Shown here piece by piece: positions 3,097 through 21,752 of a stretch of DNA of 64,000 nt (its first letter is position 1; each line of letters starts with the position of its first letter). Below the pieces are notes generated by a model. It was not told the DNA's origin and searched no databases. It saw only the letters and a list, made by a program, of their open reading frames with translations. The stretch lies in NCBI GenBank assembly GCA_902786855.1, contig CADAEH010000001.1:1-64000 (forward strand), in the 5' to 3' direction. The stretch comes from an uncultured Eubacteriales bacterium. GTDB taxonomy: Bacteria; Bacillota; Clostridia; Peptostreptococcales; Anaerovoracaceae. A program made the translations under genes and the position numbers.

Positions 3097-3171
3097 TGGA
3101 GCTGATGGGGGGAGTCGAACCCCCAACCGCCTCGTTACGAATGAGGTGCTCTGCCATTAAGCTACATCAGC
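3097..3171 (-). tRNA. tRNA-Thr (anticodon CGU)
   Basis: The minus strand folds as a complete tRNA: acceptor GCTGATG (3171-3165) with CATCAGC (3107-3101), discriminator T, and encoded CCA (3099-3097). The T-arm has loop TTCGACT in a G/C stem. The 7-base anticodon loop TTCGTAA gives anticodon CGT, decoding ACG as threonine. The anticodon stem has one A-C mismatch at its loop end. Two partial copies of its 5' half lie immediately upstream. Confidence 0.92.
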
Positions 3172-3327
3172 GTATTACGAATGAGGTGCTCTGCCATTAA
3201 GCGTTTATCGGAGGAGCGCAGCCGACGGAGATCAAGGTTTCCGACAATACGGCAACGCCGTATGATCCGGAGGAAACCTTACATCAGCGTATTACGAATG
3301 AGGTGCTCTGCCATTAAGCGTTTATCG
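3163..3327 (-). repeat. 48-bp direct repeat carrying partial tRNA-Thr copies
   Basis: Bases 3163-3210 and 3280-3327 are identical over 48 bases. Each holds 28 bases of the tRNA-Thr 5' half (D-arm through anticodon loop), also present in the real gene at 3135-3162. The first copy overlaps the tRNA 5' end. The copies lie on the upstream side of the tRNA, so a transcript made from a promoter above them would carry two broken tRNA halves before the intact one. Slippage or aborted integration at the tRNA could explain this. Confidence 0.85.
3234..3280. repeat. Nested palindrome between the tRNA-fragment repeats
   Basis: The outer arms AAGGTTTCC (3234-3242) and GGAAACCTT (3272-3280) are perfect. 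Inside is ATACGGC-AAC-GCCGTAT (3247-3263), also perfect. No T tract follows on either side, so it does not look like a terminator. Confidence 0.7.
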
Positions 3328-3413: not shown

Positions 3414-4526
3414 CTATCCTGCCATATCGTATTCCAGGGCGACTGAGACTTCGTAATCATGATGCTTTTGCTTTACCGCATCCTTTATTGCTTCTTGTAC
3501 CGCTGCCTTGTCCGCAGTATCAAAGTCTATCACTGCGTTAAACCTGATCTCTTTATCCACTTCATCCAGATAGAAGCCGTTCATCCTCAGGACCTTGTCG
3601 ATACCGGTTACGGTTTGTCTGATATCCTCCTCCATTTCTGCAGCTCTTTCGTCCCTTGTGTTGACTGCATAGATCGACAATCCGAGCATCACTACTCCGG
3701 TGTCTTCCAGTACCTTTTTGCTGATTGCCCGCTGCAGATTGTCTATCCAGGATGCTTTCAACCCTTCAGGGACTTCTATGTAAGCTGAACCGTACAGCTT
3801 TTCTTTGCCGTAATTGTGGATGACCAGATCAAACACATCTCCTACTTCCGGGAATGACAGGATGGACTCACGCACGCTTGACGCCAGTTCAACCGATACT
3901 CGTTCGCCGAGAATTTCGTTTATGGTCTCTCTGAGGATCTTGATGCCCGTTCTTATGATCAGGCACGATATCACCACTCCTACATAGGCCTCGATATCCG
4001 CATGCATATAAATATAAACCAGCGCCGCTGCAAGTGTGGCAGCAGAGGCCATTGCATCGTCAAAAGCTTCATGACCCGATGCCATCAGTGCCTGTGAATC
4101 CAGTTCTCTGCCGTGGCGCAGGGCATACAGGCCCATGCCGATCTTGGCGGCAGCGGCTGTGACGATAACAACGATGACATGCAGGGTATACTCGTGCTTC
4201 TCAGGCGTGATAATTCGCTGGACAGACTCAACCGCGCCTGTGACTCCGACATATAGTATGATGGCGCCGATCACCAGGGCTGACAGAAACTCTACTCTGC
4301 CATAGCCGAATGGATGGTTTCTGTCGGGATCTTTCATCGACAGCTTCGCTCCGATAATTGTGATAACAGAAGACAGTGCATCGCTAATGTTGTTCACAGC
4401 GTCTATCATGATCGCGATGGAATTAGCCGCAAGACCTACGCCCAGCTTAAAAATGCACAGAAAGACATTTCCGAGTATACCAACAAGACTGGTTTTTATT
4501 ATCTTTTTCGTTCTATCTGACTTCAC
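3414..4526 (-). CDS. Cation diffusion facilitator (CDF) metal efflux transporter
   Basis: A 370-residue membrane protein of the CDF family, which exports divalent metals (Zn, Mn, Co or Fe) in exchange for protons. D42 and D49 in helix 2 and H152/D156 (HEAFD) in helix 5 form the expected metal site; HPFGYGR (71-77) is the family signature between helices 2 and 3. The C-terminal ~170 residues are cytoplasmic and longer than the usual ferredoxin-like domain, perhaps two such domains. The start overlaps the end of the CARF-HEPN gene by 14 bases, so it is probably the last cistron of that operon. The metal cannot be assigned; DxxxD in helix 2 is more typical of Mn/Fe-type than Zn-type members. Confidence 0.9.
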   Translation of the reverse strand: MKSDRTKKIIKTSLVGILGNVFLCIFKLGVGLAANSIAIMIDAVNNISDALSSVITIIGAKLSMKDPDRNHPFGYGRVEFLSALVIGAIILYVGVTGAVESVQRIITPEKHEYTLHVIVVIVTAAAAKIGMGLYALRHGRELDSQALMASGHEAFDDAMASAATLAAALVYIYMHADIEAYVGVVISCLIIRTGIKILRETINEILGERVSVELASSVRESILSFPEVGDVFDLVIHNYGKEKLYGSAYIEVPEGLKASWIDNLQRAISKKVLEDTGVVMLGLSIYAVNTRDERAAEMEEDIRQTVTGIDKVLRMNGFYLDEVDKEIRFNAVIDFDTADKAAVQEAIKDAVKQKHHDYEVSVALEYDMAG

Positions 4527-6357
4527 TTTTCTCCAGTTTCTTTGCTGCGGCTTTGACTTCGTATGAATTGATCCTGACTACATCAAGTTCTCTGTCTCCG
4601 ATGATAGATGTGACTTTTTCGTAGCAATTGATGAAATACTGTATGACCTCTCTGATCTTGACAAGTCTTGTCATCTCATCTTTTTCCTCAGTGATCAGTC
4701 TGTCTTCGGTGAATCCATCAGAATCTTCGGCGTGATTGATGTGATTCCTGACGTTCCCTATATAATAATACGCATAGAGGAGATCTTCGACTGCCTGACG
4801 GTCATCGCAGGCTGTAAATGCTGTGATCACTCCTTCATCAGTATTGTCCAGTCCTCTCATTCTCTGCTGTGCATATGCCCTCTGCGGATCATCGTTCTTT
4901 CCGCTTCTGTCACGGCGCTCGTAGCTCTTGAGGAAGTAGTGGTCGATGTTGTCCATATGCCAGTATTCAAAAGGACGCATTTCTGACCTGATCTGTGCAA
5001 GTATATTGATGACCTGCTCTTTATACTCTTCACTGTTGCAATAGTAAAAGATCCCCTTACTGACAAATTCTTCCGGAGCTCTTGCTTCGATAAGCGTGAG
5101 AGTCTGCTGATAAAACTTCTTCCTGTGTCCCCATTTTACCAGGTCGATAAAATTAGTCTTGTCTCCTTCCATCAGCGGGCCGTAGTCATGCCTGACTCCT
5201 CCTGCAAGCCCCAGAAAGATCCTGCTGTAATAATTATCAGGTTCCTCTTCCGGCGGATTCCTGAAAAGATCCCTCAGATCCTTTATGCCTCGCTCCATCT
5301 CACTGATCTTGCACAGAGACAGACCGGCATCGATGCGTCTCATCGCATAGACCATCTTCTCTGCATACTCGTCGCTGACACCGGTCCTTTCCCAGTAGTT
5401 AACGAGCATATCCGCTTTGCCGTAATTCATGAAGGTCTTTATAGCCGCCGTAAGTTCAGTGATGCCAAAGCTGTCCGTATCGTCTTTTATCTCTCCTGTA
5501 AGAGTATTGTGTTCTCTGGACGCTGTGAACGTTTTGATGACATCGACATCCTTTCCGAGCATTGTGTCGATCATATCAAGCATATTCATCAGGACATAGC
5601 TGTCTGACATGTCATCGCTGTTCAGCGCAACATAGAGATAGACCTGCTCGCCCCTGTGCTCGCCGACTATAGCATCCAGCAGTCTCCGGATATTTTCTAC
5701 CGGAAGTTTTCCGTCATTGGTATTATTGGTAGGTATGAATCTGACCTTGACATCTTCATTCTCCGGCAGGAGGTCCATTTTGACAGAATCTTTGAGTTCC
5801 ATCCACAGATAGTTCTTGATCCATGCGTAATAATTCCGGCGATTCGCACCTTCAGGGATCATTTCGTCAATAACATCCTCAAGTTCTTCGTACCATCCTC
5901 TGTCCTGTGCCAGCTTGTCGAAAAAACGGTTGAATTTCCCCTGAGGATCCTTCTCTTTTGCAAACACTGTAACGATGCTTCTGACCTCGTCCTGAGCTTT
6001 TTCGTCGAGCAGTTCCAGGAGATCCTGCTGCTCGAGTCTCAGCTCATCGATATACTGGGCTATCCTGTATCTGTACAGACTGTAGGTGGACAGATCCCTT
6101 ATATCTGACGTGTAAAAGTCTTTTCCGCTCTTAAGCTCGATCAGTCTGCCGTCATCGCCGTCATCAAATGTGGTCTTACGTCCGATGGTCACGATCTCAT
6201 CGATCTCATGTTTTGAAAGGACAAATTTTGTGCTTGCCTCAACAGTCGTCAGGGCATCACAGTAATAGTTTCTGCCGCCGTCTTTTGCATAGAAATAATG
6301 CAAGTCGCCGTTCTTGTCTGCTTCATAAAGTGAAGTAAGCAATATTTTATATGCCAT
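4513..6357 (-). CDS. CARF-HEPN protein, TM1812/Csx1-like, outside a CRISPR locus
   Basis: A 614-residue soluble protein. The N-terminal ~320 residues resemble the CARF domain of TM1812/Csx1 proteins: an opening strand KILLTSLY, EIVTIGR at 54-60, a helical insert (about 90-200), then VKVRFIPTN, QVYLYVALN and a closing region DSFGITELTAAIKTFMNYG (296-314) that fits the family. The C-terminus carries R537-N-H-I-N-H542, the R-x4-H motif of HEPN ribonucleases. In CRISPR type III such proteins are RNases switched on by cyclic oligoadenylate. The usual D-x-T-H-G-type ligand stretch is replaced by ALNSDDMSD. No CRISPR array or cas gene is present in the window. It sits between the HdeD-like gene and the CDF gene, overlapping the latter. 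Family call is good; function is inference. Confidence 0.7.
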   Translation of the reverse strand: MAYKILLTSLYEADKNGDLHYFYAKDGGRNYYCDALTTVEASTKFVLSKHEIDEIVTIGRKTTFDDGDDGRLIELKSGKDFYTSDIRDLSTYSLYRYRIAQYIDELRLEQQDLLELLDEKAQDEVRSIVTVFAKEKDPQGKFNRFFDKLAQDRGWYEELEDVIDEMIPEGANRRNYYAWIKNYLWMELKDSVKMDLLPENEDVKVRFIPTNNTNDGKLPVENIRRLLDAIVGEHRGEQVYLYVALNSDDMSDSYVLMNMLDMIDTMLGKDVDVIKTFTASREHNTLTGEIKDDTDSFGITELTAAIKTFMNYGKADMLVNYWERTGVSDEYAEKMVYAMRRIDAGLSLCKISEMERGIKDLRDLFRNPPEEEPDNYYSRIFLGLAGGVRHDYGPLMEGDKTNFIDLVKWGHRKKFYQQTLTLIEARAPEEFVSKGIFYYCNSEEYKEQVINILAQIRSEMRPFEYWHMDNIDHYFLKSYERRDRSGKNDDPQRAYAQQRMRGLDNTDEGVITAFTACDDRQAVEDLLYAYYYIGNVRNHINHAEDSDGFTEDRLITEEKDEMTRLVKIREVIQYFINCYEKVTSIIGDRELDVVRINSYEVKAAAKKLEKSEVR

Positions 6358-6403
6358 GTGTCCTCTCCCCTGTCTGCACTGTGTCCAAGTACTTTTAAGT
6401 TCT

Positions 6404-6943
6404 CTATTGTATATATACTATCGCTGTGCGCCTGAATGCAGATGCTGCCCTCAGCATCGCTGAATAGACCAGTCCCACAGCATACACATACACCGCGATC
6501 CTCAGATCGTGCATGTAAAAGCCGCTCACTATGACCGCCGTCCCCAGCAGTACGTCAGTCGTGCCGAAAGCCATAGTAAACCTCCACGAGGCACCGACTG
6601 CTTTTGCTTCTCTTGACCGCAAAACATCGATCAGTCCCGCGAACAGATGCAGTCCTGCTACATAAAGTATAATGATGTATGCCGAATTGTCTATGATAGT
6701 TCCGGTAAAAAGTCCGGCATCGACCATGATGATCCCGCGGTACAGCACATTCTTGCCGCCTACCATATGTCTCGCCATTGTATAATAGTAGACCAGCCGC
6801 CGGAGACCTCTCACCGTAAAAGATATACTTACGACGATCGCCACGACCGGAAGTCCTTCTACCGGGCTTACGAAGAGCAGCCCTGCAAAAGCTATCATGA
6901 CCACAGCTGTTATTAAATTTCCGATACGCTGCACTTTAGTCAT
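6404..6943 (-). CDS. HdeD/DUF308-like membrane protein
   Basis: A 179-residue protein with about six predicted hydrophobic helices arranged as two similar halves, as in HdeD/DUF308. In enterobacteria HdeD contributes to acid resistance; no biochemical activity is established. Its start overlaps the end of the DUF6765 gene by 8 bases, implying coupled translation. A 46-base gap separates it from the CARF-HEPN gene. A membrane helper role for the operon is inference. Confidence 0.7.
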   Translation of the reverse strand: MTKVQRIGNLITAVVMIAFAGLLFVSPVEGLPVVAIVVSISFTVRGLRRLVYYYTMARHMVGGKNVLYRGIIMVDAGLFTGTIIDNSAYIIILYVAGLHLFAGLIDVLRSREAKAVGASWRFTMAFGTTDVLLGTAVIVSGFYMHDLRIAVYVYAVGLVYSAMLRAASAFRRTAIVYIQ

Positions 6944-8102
6944 TGATCGTGCTCCTGGTACTCTGCTCAGCCAGCTTTTGGAAATCCTTTATTCCGGCAA
7001 AGCCTTTCTCTCTGAAGTCGATCGAGAACCCCGCGATCAGGCTTCCCGAAGTGAATATGCGGTTGGTCACCATGCTCTTCTGCGCCATAGCCGCAATGAA
7101 AAACTGCCCGAGGAACGTCTCATCTCTGGACGATTCGTCAGTGTCCATGTATTCCTTCTGGTATTTTTCTATATCAAAATCCTCAACACTGCATCCTGAG
7201 ATCCTCTCTGCCAGAGCCTTCCAGTCGGAGCATGCATCGGTCTGTCGTTTTGTCAGAATGTGTATGATATCGTCTTTATACGGCCATACCGCCTCTGCAT
7301 CATATCGTTCGGTCTCGAAGGGCTTTCCCTCTTTCAGACATTTCAGGGCGTACACCATCTGGCAGAAGGCATGGAAATAGTCAGATGGATTGTCCTTGAT
7401 GATCTCTTTATATTCTCCCCATGCCGGCATATATATGTATCTGGCATAGCTGTAGTCCGGAAGGTGTCCTGCTCTGCCGTGCCCGAGATTCATCACGGAG
7501 TTTTCCTCACTCTGGAACAGGCTGTTGGTATAGACGCCTTTTTCCGGTACATCGGGTGAAGACGGATTGTGGTTGAACCTTATCGGTCTCAGCTTAAAGC
7601 TCTCTCCTTCAGGCACTATCTCATAGAAGTATCTGGTCGTATTGTTGATGGCAAGCGAAGGGGTCCCGGCAAAATACCTGTGTGCCCAGGTGTCTGCGAG
7701 TATATGCATCGCAAGGCCGGCTGCAGGAAGGCCTCTGTCCCTGACCAGCTCTACAGTCTCAGCAAGGAGGCTGCTGTTAGGATTGCAGATCAGACGGTAC
7801 TTACTAAGGTATCTCCTGCCGCACTTTTCCTTTTCTGCATGAAGATCTCCCGGAAGGAAGTGAAAAGATGCCCATATCCTGGTCATGTTCTGTATGCTCG
7901 ATATGTCAGAGCCCTCATTCATCATCTCGAGCTGCAGCTGTGTCGTTGCAGCAGAAAGCGGTCCGCCTGTCTTCCTGAGCAGTGTAACGGAACAGCAGTC
8001 GACAAACTGAGCGCTGTAGGCTATCTGCAGGCTTTCCTCAGGCGTGTATCCGGCGATACATGCCGCGCAGTATGTAGCATAATAGTGAAAATCAAGCTGC
8101 AT
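6936..8102 (-). CDS. DUF6765-family protein, possible zinc phospholipase C fold
   Basis: A 388-residue protein opening with QLDFHYYATYCAACIAGY, which matches the DUF6765 family as I remember it. HILADTWAHRYFAGTPS (about 128-144) has the histidine/aspartate arrangement seen in zinc-dependent phospholipase C-like folds, and several more conserved histidines follow. No signal peptide or membrane helix is seen, so it is probably cytosolic. It overlaps the HdeD-like gene by 8 bases and follows the small membrane protein by 3 bases. Nuclease or phospholipase activity is possible but not shown. Confidence 0.65.
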   Translation of the reverse strand: MQLDFHYYATYCAACIAGYTPEESLQIAYSAQFVDCCSVTLLRKTGGPLSAATTQLQLEMMNEGSDISSIQNMTRIWASFHFLPGDLHAEKEKCGRRYLSKYRLICNPNSSLLAETVELVRDRGLPAAGLAMHILADTWAHRYFAGTPSLAINNTTRYFYEIVPEGESFKLRPIRFNHNPSSPDVPEKGVYTNSLFQSEENSVMNLGHGRAGHLPDYSYARYIYMPAWGEYKEIIKDNPSDYFHAFCQMVYALKCLKEGKPFETERYDAEAVWPYKDDIIHILTKRQTDACSDWKALAERISGCSVEDFDIEKYQKEYMDTDESSRDETFLGQFFIAAMAQKSMVTNRIFTSGSLIAGFSIDFREKGFAGIKDFQKLAEQSTRSTIND

Positions 8103-8105
8103 ATC

Positions 8106-8657
8106 CTAAGCCCTTTTCTTCCTTTCCTGCCGGGCGAATCTCCTGATCCTGACAGAAGCGATCGTCATCTCCAGCAGCATGATAAATGAAGTCAGCTCTA
8201 TCAATACCGAAGACAGCATACTGTCATTATTGAAAACTTCTGTCAAGATCCCTGCGTCTTCCTGAGTTCCCGTCAGCAATGTAATGATGTTGGAGATATT
8301 GACGATCATCATTATGCAGGCTATGACGACATACGGAAATCTCATGTTTCTTCCGTTGCCCTCGGAGATCGCTGAAAGCCCCACGAGAAGTCTGGATGCG
8401 ATGTCAAAGATCAGCATGGTCATTGCCATTATCAGCATCATTTTGAACAAAAGTGACGGGCTGATCTCTGTCACATCAAGACCTTTTTCCTGAGCATCTT
8501 CATACACCGCCGATATGATCTCGTGTCTTCTGATAAAAAGCACGCTAAAAACCTTAACAAGGGACCATATCCCAAAGGCTATGGTCCCTGCTCCGACGAT
8601 CCTGAGTGTATTCCGATCGCGTCTTAATCTGATATGTTCCGGACTGTTGTTAATCAC
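8106..8657 (-). CDS. Small membrane protein of unknown family
   Basis: A 183-residue protein with four predicted hydrophobic segments (about 20-40, 68-90, 105-125, 150-165), an amphipathic loop after helix 1 and a strongly basic tail (RIRRFARQERKKRA). I do not recognise the family. It starts inside the last 8 bases of the clostripain gene and ends 3 bases before the DUF6765 gene, so it is made in step with both. Confidence 0.75.
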   Translation of the reverse strand: MINNSPEHIRLRRDRNTLRIVGAGTIAFGIWSLVKVFSVLFIRRHEIISAVYEDAQEKGLDVTEISPSLLFKMMLIMAMTMLIFDIASRLLVGLSAISEGNGRNMRFPYVVIACIMMIVNISNIITLLTGTQEDAGILTEVFNNDSMLSSVLIELTSFIMLLEMTIASVRIRRFARQERKKRA

Positions 8658-11307
8658 CTATGTGTGCCTCTACCACTTCTGTATATAACTCTCTCTGGTA
8701 CGCATCAGTCAGTCTGCCGAGGAATTCTATGTCACAGTCCTCAAGCTCTCTGTCGGCTACATCCAGCTTATCCATGGTCCTTACATAGATGCTCTTGCCG
8801 TAAGGTTCTGTCGAAATAAGCTTGCCCTCTTCATCGTAATAATCAAAGAGGAAATCGATCTTGTCTCCGGCGTTGAGTTTCTGTGTACCTTTCGACATGA
8901 AGGCGAATTCATCTTCGACAAGATCATATCCGGTCACACGCCCTGTTTCGCCTCCTTCAGCATTATCTGAAGAAGGATTCCACTCTATGTGGATGAGGAT
9001 ATCATCTGCGTCGTTGAGTCTGGCTTTCACGTCTCCCGTGAAGAATGTACCATCTTCCGTTTCCTTGGCGCCCCTGTCCTCATAGCATACGAGCTGTCCG
9101 TTGATATGTACCCACCTGTCATCCATGTCGACCATCGGATGACCGTCAGCATCTAAGTCTCCTGTATGGTCGTATCCCAGATAGCGCATCTTTCCGTCTT
9201 CAGTCTTCTGATAAACGATGGTCACGCAGTCTGCGATTATCTTCCATGTCTTTTCCGGCAGCTGTACGCTGAATCCATTTCCGGTATCGGTCAGCGGTAT
9301 ATCGACAAGTGTCGTTGTAGGATAATAGTCTTCGAATCCTTTTACATACCATTCCTGCTGTGTATAGTCCTCATACTGCAGCTCATCGAGGAAATTTATC
9401 AGCCTGCTTTTCGAAGGTTCCTTGTTGTCATGCTCAGCCTTTTTCTGAACGGCTATGATACTGAATATATCATTAAATACTGCTTTCTCCTTTAATAATC
9501 TAAGGTTGTCAAACTCAACTGCTGTATCCGAATAAAAGTCTATACTCTTGTAAGGCAGCGCAAGTGCCATACCGTTGATGCCTTTTGCGGAATCACGGTT
9601 TCTGTAGATCACGCAAGCCTTTACGGCATTGATGGCATCATCCTTGTCCGCCTGGCTGCATATGGAGTCATTGACATCTGCATCATCGAGCTTTTCAATG
9701 AAGTCGACCAGATCCATCTGAATGTTATCTGCGAACGCATACGCGTTCATAGCAGCAAGACCGACCTCGCCGAAATCAGCCGGGTCATTTTTGATTGCCT
9801 GATCCGCCTGTTCAAGCAAGCCATTAAATTTTTTATAGGCCGGTCTTACCAGGGTCAGATCGACAAGCGACAGAGTCGCGCTGTTTTTTGCCTCACCGTC
9901 GTTAAGGATGGTATTGAACTGGTCATACGCTGCAACGATGTCTTTGCCGAACTCTTCGGTGCTCATTCCCGGATCTGACGCCAACTTTCCGAATGATGAA
10001 GTGTAATACCAGCCGAAGCCGCCTTCTGTCTCTTCTGAGCCGAGATAATAATCAGCATAAGGCTCGAATGCACGGGCTATCTCGATATCCTGCATCAGGC
10101 AGGCGTCGAATCCGATCAGATCGAATCTGATGCCCGACTTCTTCACGGCATCTACTACTTCTGATACGCTCAGGCCTCTTCTCTCATCGTCTTCATTATC
10201 AGGTTTCCTTGGGTTGAGCTGATCCCTTGCGTATCCGTACGGAACTCCGCCGCCGTGATCCCACAATACGAGCATGTATCTGTCTGCAGGGTAGTTTTCC
10301 GCAGTCCATTTTATGAAATCTTCAAGGCTTTCAGACTCTTCGAGACTGGTCCCATTGTCGAGATCCATAACTTTTTTCAGGGCACCGCCCTTGATGTCGT
10401 ATCTGCCGTAGCTGTTGTCAGCGATACCGCCGGTGAACCATCTCTTTGATCCGCCTGCCTCGAGCACGAAAGTCAGAGCGTCGCCTTTTTTTGTCGCATC
10501 CTTCATCATGCTGATATTCGCCGACGCCATTCCCATACGGTCCTCAAGGTCAGCGCCTACGACATATTCCATGACAACAACACTTTTGTCTTTTGAATGA
10601 TCAGGGAACATTTTTTCCCTGCTAGGAGTGATGTCCTTTAAGGAAGCTGCGGCTTCTCCCATTGCTTCATCTCTTCCCACAGCATTGCCGTCGGAAACTA
10701 TGTCCTTGGTTTTTGCATATGTATCGTTAAGAATATAGTTCACGAGAGGGACCGGCGGATATGCGCGGACTGTATAGAATCCGACTCCGAGCACCAGGAT
10801 TATCACCTCTGCTATCGATATCAGGGCTACTGTCAGTTTTCTTATCTGGTTGTAGAACCTGCTGTGCCATCTTTCCTCCTTGAACTCGAGAGGATGGTAT
10901 TGGCTCTTGCCGAGACCGAGGATAAGCAGGAACAGGGTCGGGAAAAGTATCATGAGTATGGTATATATGACACCCTTTCCGAAACTCTTCGCCAGTCTGC
11001 AGTACAGGCGTATCAGGAACAATCCGTATACGACAATGGCTATGCACATGTACGCAGCACCCGTGCCTTCTTCCGGTCCCAGATAATAAGCCCCCGTCAC
11101 AAACACTGCCGCTATGATGAACGGTCTGTAGAAAGATCTCATCTTGCGGAACAGTACAGTCGACATCTCACGTTCTGCAAGGAACGGTATGATCGCGGTC
11201 CATTTCTTCAGGCCCATTTTCCTGAGAATGAAGAAATATGCTATAGCCTGCAGGACCAGCGGAAAGATCCAGTTTTCCGGATCCATCATCAGGTAGTTTA
11301 AAATCAT
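8650..11307 (-). CDS. Membrane-anchored clostripain (C11) cysteine protease
   Basis: An 885-residue protein. The first ~180 residues hold about five membrane helices (13-28, 61-76, 84-103, 111-133, 160-180). The C11 protease domain follows: H351 in VLWDHGGG and C403 in GFDACLM form the His-Cys dyad of this caspase-fold family, which cleaves after arginine or lysine. The C-terminal ~300 residues are acidic and probably beta-rich. Clostripains are normally secreted with a signal peptide; a multi-helix N-terminal anchor is unusual. Which side the protease faces cannot be told from sequence. RBS AAGGAG precedes the start; 28 bases separate it from DUF1846. Downstream genes overlap. Confidence 0.88.
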   Translation of the reverse strand: MILNYLMMDPENWIFPLVLQAIAYFFILRKMGLKKWTAIIPFLAEREMSTVLFRKMRSFYRPFIIAAVFVTGAYYLGPEEGTGAAYMCIAIVVYGLFLIRLYCRLAKSFGKGVIYTILMILFPTLFLLILGLGKSQYHPLEFKEERWHSRFYNQIRKLTVALISIAEVIILVLGVGFYTVRAYPPVPLVNYILNDTYAKTKDIVSDGNAVGRDEAMGEAAASLKDITPSREKMFPDHSKDKSVVVMEYVVGADLEDRMGMASANISMMKDATKKGDALTFVLEAGGSKRWFTGGIADNSYGRYDIKGGALKKVMDLDNGTSLEESESLEDFIKWTAENYPADRYMLVLWDHGGGVPYGYARDQLNPRKPDNEDDERRGLSVSEVVDAVKKSGIRFDLIGFDACLMQDIEIARAFEPYADYYLGSEETEGGFGWYYTSSFGKLASDPGMSTEEFGKDIVAAYDQFNTILNDGEAKNSATLSLVDLTLVRPAYKKFNGLLEQADQAIKNDPADFGEVGLAAMNAYAFADNIQMDLVDFIEKLDDADVNDSICSQADKDDAINAVKACVIYRNRDSAKGINGMALALPYKSIDFYSDTAVEFDNLRLLKEKAVFNDIFSIIAVQKKAEHDNKEPSKSRLINFLDELQYEDYTQQEWYVKGFEDYYPTTTLVDIPLTDTGNGFSVQLPEKTWKIIADCVTIVYQKTEDGKMRYLGYDHTGDLDADGHPMVDMDDRWVHINGQLVCYEDRGAKETEDGTFFTGDVKARLNDADDILIHIEWNPSSDNAEGGETGRVTGYDLVEDEFAFMSKGTQKLNAGDKIDFLFDYYDEEGKLISTEPYGKSIYVRTMDKLDVADRELEDCDIEFLGRLTDAYQRELYTEVVEAHIGD

Positions 11308-11335
11308 AGAGTTGCTCCTTTCAGCAACGTTTCAT

Positions 11336-12847
11336 CTATTTTGAATAAAGATTGTTATTTGAAAATTCAGGGTTCGAAGTGATATCTATTCCGAGTGACT
11401 TAAGCGCCTGCTCGTCTTTGTCTGACAGTATCGCGGTGCAGTGAGCGATGCATCCGTTCAGATGCGGGATCTCTCTCAGCGCGAGTTCAGCGAACGGGTT
11501 GGTCAGCTTGGTCAGTGTCAGAGCCATTATGACCTCTTCAAGGTTGAGGCTGGACTTATCGTGAAAAACTCTGACCTTGGTGTTGGTCATGCTCTCGAAA
11601 ATAGTCGGCGAGATGATCAGCATCTCATCCTGGATGCCGGCAAGCTTTTTGATCGCATTCAGAACCATGGCGGCTGTTGCGACCATTCTCTTAGATGATC
11701 TTCCGGTCACGATGCTGCCGTCAGGCAGTTCTATCGCAGACACAACCACGTTTTCATATCTATCAGGATCCTGAGCCTTCTTGACCTCGACATACTCTTC
11801 GGCAGCCGCTACAACAGATCGGTCATACCTTGTTGCACCGACCTCCTCCATCAGCAGCTTGCATCTCTCGAGCGTCGATGCATCTATATTGCCCTTTCTG
11901 TATTGGCATTCAGCGATGAGATACCTTCTGACGATCTCCTGGCGCGAAGCCTCTCTGCATGCCTCATCATCGATGATGGCAAAACCGCATCTGTTCACAC
12001 CCATATCTGTAGGGGACTTGTATCCTTCATCAGAACCGGTGATAGCGTGCAGGATCCTCTTGAGAACAGGGAAAGCATCGACATCTCTGTTATAGTTGAC
12101 TGCGACCTCTCCGTACGCATTGAGGTGGAACGGATCGATCATATTGAAATCCTTGAGATCTGCAGTCGCAGCTTCATATGCTATATTGACAGGGTGCTTG
12201 AGCGGGAGATTCCAGATAGGGAATGTCTCGAACTTGGCGTATCTCGCTTTGCGCCCCAGACTGTACTCGTGATAGACCTGAGAAAGTGAAGTCGCCAGTT
12301 TGCCCGATCCGCCGCCCGGTCCGGTCACGACGATCAGCGGTCTGCTGACCTCTATATACGGATTGGCGCCGTAGCCTTCTTCTGAGACGATGGTATCGAC
12401 ATCTGTAGGATATCCCTTGGTGTACATATGCTTATATGTGCGTATGCCTCTCCTCTCTAGCTTGGCTATGAACTGGTTCACCGAAGGCGCATCTTCATAT
12501 CTGGTGACGACTACAGAGTTTACCTCGAGATCATAGCTGCGGAACTCATCGATCAGCCTCATAACTTCAAGGTCATATGTGATGCCGAAATCCTGACGCG
12601 TTTTGCTCTTGATGATATCGCCGGCATAGATGCAGATGATGATCTCTGCCTTGTCGCTCATCTTCTGCAGGAGCTTGATCTTGGCATTCTCGTCAAAACC
12701 CGGCAGGACTCTCATCGCGTGCTTGTCTTCCACGAGTTTTCCGCCGAACTCCAGGTAAAGCCTGCCCTCGCCGCTGTTGATCCTCTCGAGGATATACTTT
12801 GACTGTTCTTCGATATACTTTTCTGCGCTGAATCCGATTTTCTTCAT
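11336..12847 (-). CDS. DUF1846 family protein
   Basis: A 503-residue protein, the usual length for DUF1846, opening with the family-typical KIGFSAEKYIEEQS. A glycine-rich GPGGGSGKLATSLSQ (about 174-188) resembles a P-loop. The family is widespread in Firmicutes with structures known but no firm function; nucleotide binding is inferred from the loop. It lies 28 bases ahead of the clostripain gene and may be co-transcribed with it. Confidence 0.88.
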   Translation of the reverse strand: MKKIGFSAEKYIEEQSKYILERINSGEGRLYLEFGGKLVEDKHAMRVLPGFDENAKIKLLQKMSDKAEIIICIYAGDIIKSKTRQDFGITYDLEVMRLIDEFRSYDLEVNSVVVTRYEDAPSVNQFIAKLERRGIRTYKHMYTKGYPTDVDTIVSEEGYGANPYIEVSRPLIVVTGPGGGSGKLATSLSQVYHEYSLGRKARYAKFETFPIWNLPLKHPVNIAYEAATADLKDFNMIDPFHLNAYGEVAVNYNRDVDAFPVLKRILHAITGSDEGYKSPTDMGVNRCGFAIIDDEACREASRQEIVRRYLIAECQYRKGNIDASTLERCKLLMEEVGATRYDRSVVAAAEEYVEVKKAQDPDRYENVVVSAIELPDGSIVTGRSSKRMVATAAMVLNAIKKLAGIQDEMLIISPTIFESMTNTKVRVFHDKSSLNLEEVIMALTLTKLTNPFAELALREIPHLNGCIAHCTAILSDKDEQALKSLGIDITSNPEFSNNNLYSK

Positions 12848-12872
12848 ATGGTCCTTCTTTCCCTTTCAATAT

Positions 12873-12904
12873 GAAAAGCACATCCTGCTTAGGGGTGTGC
12901 TGCT
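12873..12904 (-). terminator. Weak hairpin, possible attenuator
   Basis: Six-bp stem 12877-12882/12896-12901 (AGCACA/TGTGCT) followed on the minus strand by TTTC. It may only partly separate DUF1934 from DUF1846. Confidence 0.3.
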
Positions 12905-12920
12905 TTCTGTCGGTCCGTGT

Positions 12921-13394
12921 TCAGGATGGCATCACTTCTATCTCAAGAATGTTGCGTCTTGAAAAGAACTGATCGAATTTGATCCTGTAGTCTACGGATA
13001 TTGTGCCGTAACCTTCTTCATCAAGGTCATCCGTGAGGCTGTTGGTATATACCTCCAGGCTGACAGGAGTCATTGCCGGTATCTGAAACCTGGTGATGCT
13101 CAGTATGCCGGGTTCTAATGTCATATCCATCCCGTCATCGTCATCAGCCCCATATCTCTTTATGTTCAGGCGCCCGTCGCTCAGCTTGACCAGAGTATGG
13201 CTGTCAGTAAGACCTGCTTCTTCTGATTCCTCATAGCTTATGTATCTCGCATTGTTCTTCTGATACATAGTGCCCTCGGTCAGTATCTCGAGAAAATCTT
13301 CCTTTTCAAGTTCGCGAAGAAAAGCCTCTCCGCTCGGCTTGAGGTTTTCAGAATACTGTGTGCTTGTGATCTTGAGGTTTACGTTTTTTTTCAT
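12921..13394 (-). CDS. DUF1934 (YwiB-like) protein
   Basis: A 157-residue protein with a DUF1934-like pattern: an N-terminal strand (VNLKITSTQYS), YQKNNARYISYEES, a charged middle and a C-terminal DYRIKF strand, consistent with the calycin-like barrel of YwiB relatives. Function is unknown. It is divergent from htrA and heads the minus-strand run. Confidence 0.75.
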   Translation of the reverse strand: MKKNVNLKITSTQYSENLKPSGEAFLRELEKEDFLEILTEGTMYQKNNARYISYEESEEAGLTDSHTLVKLSDGRLNIKRYGADDDDGMDMTLEPGILSITRFQIPAMTPVSLEVYTNSLTDDLDEEGYGTISVDYRIKFDQFFSRRNILEIEVMPS

Positions 13395-21641: not shown

Positions 21642-21752
21642 GGCAGCGGACGCGGAGACAGCACCGCAGGCTTTAGACCGCATGGCCGAGCCTTTCGTTT
21701 ACAGGCAACTTCCCATCCTGTAACACTTTACGCGCTGTTCCTACTCTGACAT
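21642..21752 (-). promoter_or_regulatory. THF (tetrahydrofolate) riboswitch
   Basis: Read on the minus strand it has the THF-I elements in order: AGAGTAG, ACAGC-GCGTaAAGTG, a hairpin TTACAG...CTGTAA closing GATGGGAAGTTGC, then ACGAA, a second hairpin AGGCT...AGCCT, GCGGT, GCTGT (pairs with ACAGC) and TCCGCTG. This is the class that binds reduced folates upstream of folT. The expression platform up to the RBS at about 21585-21591 has the palindrome AGCCGGCT and a short T run; control of termination or translation cannot be told apart. Confidence 0.85.

Follow-up and report, generated by a model that had tools for sequence, protein, structure and literature searches.

The window analysed in this study, a stretch of 64,000 nucleotides from the genome of an uncultured Eubacteriales gut bacterium (contig CADAEH010000001.1), contains a minus-strand gene (4513..6357) encoding a 614-residue protein predicted to be a stand-alone CARF-HEPN RNase with an RNHINH motif that includes R537 and H542 (PADLOC match, 6.6e-27). 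This gene is the seventh of eight consecutive minus-strand genes that an earlier note on this DNA had described as one overlapping operon, and all eight open reading frames (ORFs) were found where the note had placed them. The string begins with genes for a DUF1934 protein (157 residues, 12921..13394; PF09148, 3.8e-19) and a DUF1846 protein (503 residues, 11336..12847; PF08903, 2.2e-163), and continues with genes for a membrane-anchored clostripain (C11) protease (885 residues, 8650..11307; PF03415, 1.2e-34), a small membrane protein (183 residues, 8106..8657; recognized as an ORF), a DUF6765 protein (388 residues, 6936..8102; PF20551, 2.1e-72), a DUF308/HdeD-like membrane protein (179 residues, 6404..6943; PF03729, 1.2e-5), the CARF-HEPN protein and a CDF cation-efflux transporter (370 residues, 3414..4526; PF01545, 6.6e-39; TIGR01297 over its cut-off). 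All of the domain families that the note had called were matched, that of the HdeD-like protein weakly (25.9 bits against a cut-off of 25). The C11 catalytic domain contains the sequences WDHGGG and DACLMQ, which we take to be its His and Cys motifs.

The gaps between DUF1934 and DUF1846 and between DUF1846 and the C11 gene measure 73 and 28 nucleotides (nt), respectively. The C11 gene overlaps the small membrane protein gene by 8 nt, the latter is separated from the DUF6765 gene by 3 nt, the DUF6765 and HdeD-like genes overlap by 8 nt, and the CARF-HEPN and CDF genes overlap by 14 nt. The three overlaps of 8 to 14 bases and the 3-base gap had been reported correctly, and a 46-nt gap between the HdeD-like and CARF-HEPN genes had been omitted. 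Beyond the CDF gene, two 48-nt partial copies of the 5' half of tRNA-Thr (3163..3327, minus strand; repeat search) mark the right edge of the islet, and the intact tRNA-Thr (CGT) (3097..3171, minus strand; ARAGORN and Rfam) marks the right edge of the variable site, whose left edge is DUF1846.

An accessory islet between DUF1846 and tRNA-Thr

The DUF1934-DUF1846 pair was kept in all 15 regions from relatives of the same genus, with HtrA beside the pair in 12 of them, and DUF1846 was 82-95% identical across these relatives. The tRNA-Thr (CGT) was present in 12 of the 15 regions fetched; those of L142 and L154 are cut off by contig edges, and none was found in the 12.5 kb read of L148. The spacer comparison covered the 12 relatives in which both flanks were present. 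In seven of them (L141, L144, L145, L146, L151, L153, L155) the spacer measured 42-411 nt and held at most a small ORF, and in the remaining five (L143, L147, L149, L150, L152) it measured 1.0-5.5 kb and held other genes; the spacer of the window measures 8164 nt and holds six genes, from the C11 protease to the CDF transporter. In L143, the block of small membrane protein (37% identity to that of the window), DUF6765 (64%) and HdeD-like protein (46%) occurs at the identical site without the C11, CARF-HEPN or CDF genes. Since the site is essentially empty or differently filled in relatives and the block stands alone in L143, the six window genes make up, as judged from gene content, an accessory insert of mosaic composition; DUF1934 and DUF1846 belong to the backbone and are bystanders. 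Moreover, BLAST homologues of the HdeD-like, DUF6765 and small membrane proteins were found at none of the 74 CARF-HEPN loci described below, and C11 homologues of 43-54% identity occur in other contexts in four genomes (G135, G114, G169, G156), with no CARF-HEPN match there. The gene string had been read correctly, but by these comparisons the eight genes do not form a single conserved module. Parts of the string are found where no CARF-HEPN gene is present, and a search of gene order, on which the earlier note had itself staked its module, showed no conservation of the whole operon outside near relatives. The same-genus regions and the 74 loci together led us to reject the eight-gene order as a conserved system.

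Several other features were observed at the site and in the window. Immediately upstream of the intact tRNA (window 3097-3327), the partial tRNA-Thr copies flank a hairpin element (AAGGTTTCC...GGAAACCTT), and similar partial copies are present in L144, L150 and L152. A second, imperfect copy of the hairpin element lies elsewhere in the window's genome, with no tRNA found within 3 kb around it. An ORF of about 50 residues with one hydrophobic stretch directly follows DUF1846 in L141, L143, L146, L150-L153 and L155. The window lacks this ORF and has the start of the islet there. No relatives of DUF6765 were found among viral contigs. In L115, a four-repeat DUF308 membrane protein (Pfam; L115:5593-6708) is encoded some 20 nt ahead of the CARF-HEPN gene, comparable to the weak DUF308 protein of the window. 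A tetrahydrofolate (THF) riboswitch lies on the minus strand at 21642-21750.

The CARF-HEPN family and its apparent independence of CRISPR

By sequence, the 614-residue protein is a relative of the Csx1/Csm6-type CARF-HEPN proteins, and the earlier note's description of it as a CARF-HEPN RNase relative away from any locus of clustered regularly interspaced short palindromic repeats (CRISPR) was borne out. No accepted Pfam or NCBIfam match was obtained for the protein, which matched the PADLOC models CARF2--CARF_HEPN (the value given above) and Csx1/Csm6 (1.2e-17). In hhalign, the family profile aligned with the CRISPR-locus Csx1 proteins of L118 and L121 over residues 3-587 with a probability of 100. 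In an alignment of 47 members (A2; the window protein and 46 of 66 full-length homologues, picked for spread), R537, N538 and H542 of the R-x4-H motif (RNHINH, 537-542) were invariant, and the RN-x3-H motif was found in 65 of the 66 homologues, the exception (L086) being a broken, short frame. When solved structures were searched by sequence, neither the protein nor its alignment nor either of the two CRISPR-linked relatives matched a CARF entry.

A scan of 84,980 species genomes yielded 74 CARF-HEPN loci, which by record title belong to Bacillota and Spirochaetota. A ruminant gut site is named in 17 of the 74 titles, and 29 more bear RUG names, which presumably denote rumen collections. The gene was present in 5 of 197 genomes sampled from the window's family, the window's genome included. 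Eight of the loci (L054, L084, L097, L102, L117, L118, L119, L121) were not used as full-length sequences, and the tree comprised 65 rows including the window, with L076 and L086 left out of the 66 full-length homologues. No relatives of the protein were detected among viral contigs, plasmids and phages at the sensitivities used, and the reading of the family as a phage or plasmid gene was rejected on this ground.

Some assemblies carry two divergent CARF-HEPN paralogues (L062/L074, L066/L085, L075/L092). In RUG14393, the L074 paralogue is linked to a MATE gene, and L062 adjoins a YitT-family gene, with tRNA-Glu about 150 nt upstream. In one clade (L061, L062, L063, L077, L101), a tRNA-Glu (CTC) shares the stretch with the CARF-HEPN gene; it immediately precedes that gene in L062 and the MATE gene in L077 and L101. 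L079 has a tRNA-Met whose end lies about 150 nt ahead of its CARF-HEPN gene. These cases are comparable to the tRNA-Thr of the window. Overall, tRNA genes were found in 11 of 52 loci scanned, and in 6 of these 11 the tRNA was tRNA-Glu; nearness to a tRNA was set aside as a trait of the family.

The family looks independent of CRISPR in its genomic context. A scan for exact 23-mers repeated at least 3 times at a spacing of 48-90 nt detected no CRISPR-like array in the 64-kb window, and among 122 records scanned it detected arrays in only two, L118 and L121, where cas genes stand beside the CARF-HEPN gene. These two are among the four weakest family matches, with 26% identity each. L121 (Holdemanella biformis) encodes a 1189-residue CRISPR-locus protein (7694-11260) whose C-terminal half is a Csx1-like CARF-HEPN and whose N-terminal half is unassigned, and the locus also carries a Csm3/Cas7-like gene. 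The CRISPR INDEPENDENCE, like the searches for C11 and SMODS genes, covered 54 genomes, namely that of the window, those of four family members and 49 taken from the loci; the set includes the genome of L121 and leaves out that of L118. The window's genome (G000, 87% complete) gave no match to the Cas10 palm family or the RAMP families. It does contain Cas1 matches on two other contigs, so that a CRISPR system of another type is, or was, probably present. Matches to the Cas10 palm above 80 bits occurred in 4 of the 54 genomes, and type III RAMP matches in 5, including that of L121; four of these five are the genomes with strong Cas10 matches. Furthermore, neither Cas1 over its cut-off nor a type III RAMP gene was found in 43 of the 54 genomes. 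In the available text of PMC4012209, cas1 and cas10 are both reported missing from only 9 of 145 genomes with CARF proteins, a figure from complete genomes, whereas the genomes in this study are mostly incomplete assemblies. A CD-NTase (SMODS) as a general source of a messenger was rejected, being present in only 4 of the 54 genomes.

The putative ligand site points in the same direction. According to the available text of PMC4012209, the CARF signature consists of [DN]x[ST]xxx[RK] after strand 4 and a polar Ser or Thr at the end of strand 1, and CARF families lacking the basic residue may bind other ligands. In the present family, the strand-1 residue is kept (T8, in at least 90% of the 47 aligned members). 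The strand-4 signature is absent from the window protein, which has ALNSDDM at this place; the CRISPR-linked proteins have DVQGGGR (L118) and DLHGGFR (L121), keeping the D and the R and not the S/T. The basic residue is missing from the aligned position in 46 of 47 stand-alone members.

A MATE transporter as recurrent neighbour

A gene for a MATE-type transporter adjoins the CARF-HEPN gene in 24 of the 74 loci (21 upstream, 3 downstream). Among flanking genes, MATE genes account for 24 of 136 adjacent positions against 8 of 627 at offsets 2-10 (Fisher p 5e-13). The excess is retained after clustering of the CARF-HEPN proteins at 70% (18/100 adjacent against 3/511 farther) and at 50% (5/27 against 1/137, p 5e-4). 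The adjacent MATE gene is on the same strand in 23 of the 24 cases and within 51 nt in 20, with a 4-base overlap in three, and Pfam MatE was confirmed for both neighbours tested (L061, L107). On the CARF-HEPN tree, where 23 of the 65 rows are labelled as MATE-adjacent, at least 10 changes are needed to explain the adjacency.

The MATE neighbours form two main groups, between which identity is about 21%, and L108 stands outside both. The first comprises 10 proteins, 52-98% identical internally, from records labelled Spirochaetota, Erysipelotrichaceae and Anaerovoracaceae. When its L049 member was compared with 197 family genomes, of which 188 gave some MATE match (up to 8 candidates scored per genome), the best among the matches listed was 40% identical. 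For the second group, the L107 protein was compared with 250 genomes of its carrier's family, and E<=1e-100 was reached only in its own genome and in that of the L106 carrier, where the second-group MATE gene lies 234 nt upstream of the CARF-HEPN gene. Both groups have an invariant Asp near the start, which we assume to have a role in transport.

The window itself has no adjacent MATE gene, the CARF-HEPN gene being preceded by the DUF308 gene and followed by the CDF gene, and the protein of its genome that best matches the MATE of L049 is 31% identical to it. In L048 and L049, which carry the nearest relatives of the window protein, a MATE gene lies 22-23 nt upstream; the window lineage has thus probably lost or replaced this neighbour. 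The earlier note's linkage of the sensor-RNase to membrane proteins was in this way sustained: the family is tied to one class of membrane protein, MATE, which is the one that the window lacks. No report of MATE beside CARF-HEPN was found in a literature search that reached few subscription papers, and part of the association may already be described.

Proposed function and rival explanations

The adjacency of a CARF-HEPN gene and a membrane pump suggests an undescribed stress or defence pair. In the reading that we propose, and to which we would give an even chance of being right, the protein is a stand-alone, CRISPR-independent relative of Csx1/Csm6. Its CARF domain would sense a small ligand other than the cyclic oligoadenylate made by Cas10, and the ligand would turn on RNA cleavage by the HEPN domain, leading to growth arrest under stress or attack. 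The adjoining pump would belong to this pathway; the simplest possibility is that it exports either the ligand or the insult responsible for raising the ligand, and might thereby serve as an off-switch. In the window, this putative RNase gene is carried in an accessory islet, between the DUF308 membrane protein and the overlapping CDF exporter. A more far-reaching version seems to us rather unlikely as a whole: a CRISPR-derived but CRISPR-free immune or stress system, in which a CARF-HEPN RNase with a remodelled ligand pocket would be paired with a dedicated MATE protein, and the latter would carry a nucleotide-like messenger other than cyclic oligoadenylate through the membrane, the alarm being vented from, or shared between, cells of the rumen or gut, with the membrane C11 protease joining in some lineages.

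Several observations weigh against the proposed pathway. No MATE gene adjoins the CARF-HEPN gene in 50 of the 74 loci (at contig ends, 3 loci have no upstream and 9 no downstream gene) or anywhere in a clade that makes up 21 rows of the tree. The pump is thus not obligatory, and the window is itself among the cases without it. In L056, L080 and L081, the second-group MATE gene lies 2.4-4.3 kb away and is not adjacent. Multi-membrane neighbours other than MATE were not enriched; the CDF overlap in the window may therefore mean little, and multi-membrane neighbours in general were rejected as a partner class. The Cas10 palm model matched 23 of the 54 genomes at E<=1e-3, 10 of them over the cut-off. 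E. coli is not known to have a type III CRISPR system, and since this control also matched over the cut-off, the weaker matches were read as GGDEF relatives. Most of the genomes are metagenome-assembled, which makes the absences of cas genes soft. Finally, the basic CARF residue is kept in L090, and in L061, L071, L074 and L080 a K or R stands at the next position; some members of the family may therefore have an unchanged pocket.

A possible account, although on the unlikely side, is that the window holds an ordinary accessory islet, in which unrelated envelope and transport genes were gathered at a tRNA-Thr hotspot and share a transcript without a joint function. The different cargo of the site in 5 of the 12 relatives and its essentially empty state in 7, the L143 block without a CARF-HEPN gene, and the lack of homologues of this block at all 74 CARF-HEPN loci are consistent with it. 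Such an islet would explain the gene order of the window but not the repeated MATE linkage of the family, nor the order C11-MATE-CARF-HEPN that recurs in L049 and L111.

It is improbable that, as the earlier note had envisaged, the sensor-RNase works jointly with the membrane clostripain protease, and that the latter is activated together with, or by, the RNase. In addition to the window, a C11 gene was found within the examined stretches of three loci: two genes upstream in L049 (63% identical to the C11 of the window) and in L111 (980 residues), and 4 kb downstream in L107. This recovers the proposed link in part, but the stretches of the other 71 loci have no C11 gene. From 99 C11 matches in the 54 genomes, assuming 2200 genes per genome, about 0.7 chance neighbours would be expected among 848 ORFs, with P(>=3) = 0.035, and the three proteins look to us like different types (membrane, secreted, anchored). 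C11 was found in 47 of the 54 carrier genomes. Within the window's family, to which the carrier comparison is confined, the C11 of the window was matched in 4 of 5 carriers against 32 of 192 non-carriers (Fisher p 0.004), or in 3 of 4 against 32 of 192 without the window's genome (p 0.019), genus effects being still included in both figures; the homologues of 43-54% mentioned above lie elsewhere, in non-carriers. In the part of L049's genome examined, 5 of 56 window ORFs are matched (45, 55, 70, 48 and 84% identity), so shared ancestry of the C11 gene string is possible. The C11 link is accordingly weak but not nil, and C11 is a lead, at most a lineage-specific helper. A second clostripain-family gene occurs in the window's genome (G000:C6:23868-24791, L012), with a Pfam match stronger than that of the window's C11.

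It is very improbable that the protein serves as a functional ancillary effector of type III CRISPR, answering in trans to cyclic oligoadenylate from a Cas10 elsewhere in the genome or acquired from neighbours: the full-length relationship to CRISPR-locus Csx1, the kept strand-1 Thr and HEPN motif and the few carriers with type III genes are in line with it, but the window's genome has no Cas10 or RAMP match, 49 of the 54 genomes have no RAMP match and the strand-4 motif is absent from the window protein.

Compared with known systems, the family resembles Csx1/Csm6 (TM1812-like) proteins of type III CRISPR in its CARF-HEPN architecture, the R-x4-H motif and the full-length profile match to L118 and L121. 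Unlike them, it occurs without a CRISPR locus and usually without type III genes found in the genome, has lost the strand-4 basic residue and has MATE as a recurrent neighbour. RtcR, as described in the available text of PMC7790460 and PMC4012209, is likewise a CARF protein outside CRISPR that mostly lacks the basic residue after strand 4, and the authors of the latter suggested a distinct ligand for it; RtcR, however, is a sigma-54 transcription activator and not a HEPN RNase. Genes for CARF-nucleases that stand alone and do not depend on CRISPR have previously been noted in PMC3710099, without a transporter partner in its text ('transporter' and 'permease' are absent from the main text). CorA with SAM-AMP (PMC12669027) and the CARF/SAVED membrane effectors (PMC9704534) of type III systems also tie a nucleotide messenger to a membrane protein, but as far as their available texts go, the membrane protein is itself the Cas10-dependent effector, whereas in the present family a separate MATE protein stands beside the RNase, usually without Cas10. 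Relative to the literature found, as far as these texts extend, stand-alone CARF-nucleases are known and the pairing with MATE would be the new element.

If the proposed pathway is true, a CRISPR signalling effector would have been co-opted for another purpose, with a new ligand and with a multidrug-type exporter as an unexpected class of partner. Moreover, should the pump transport the messenger, export would represent a new means by which a nucleotide alarm is ended or spread.

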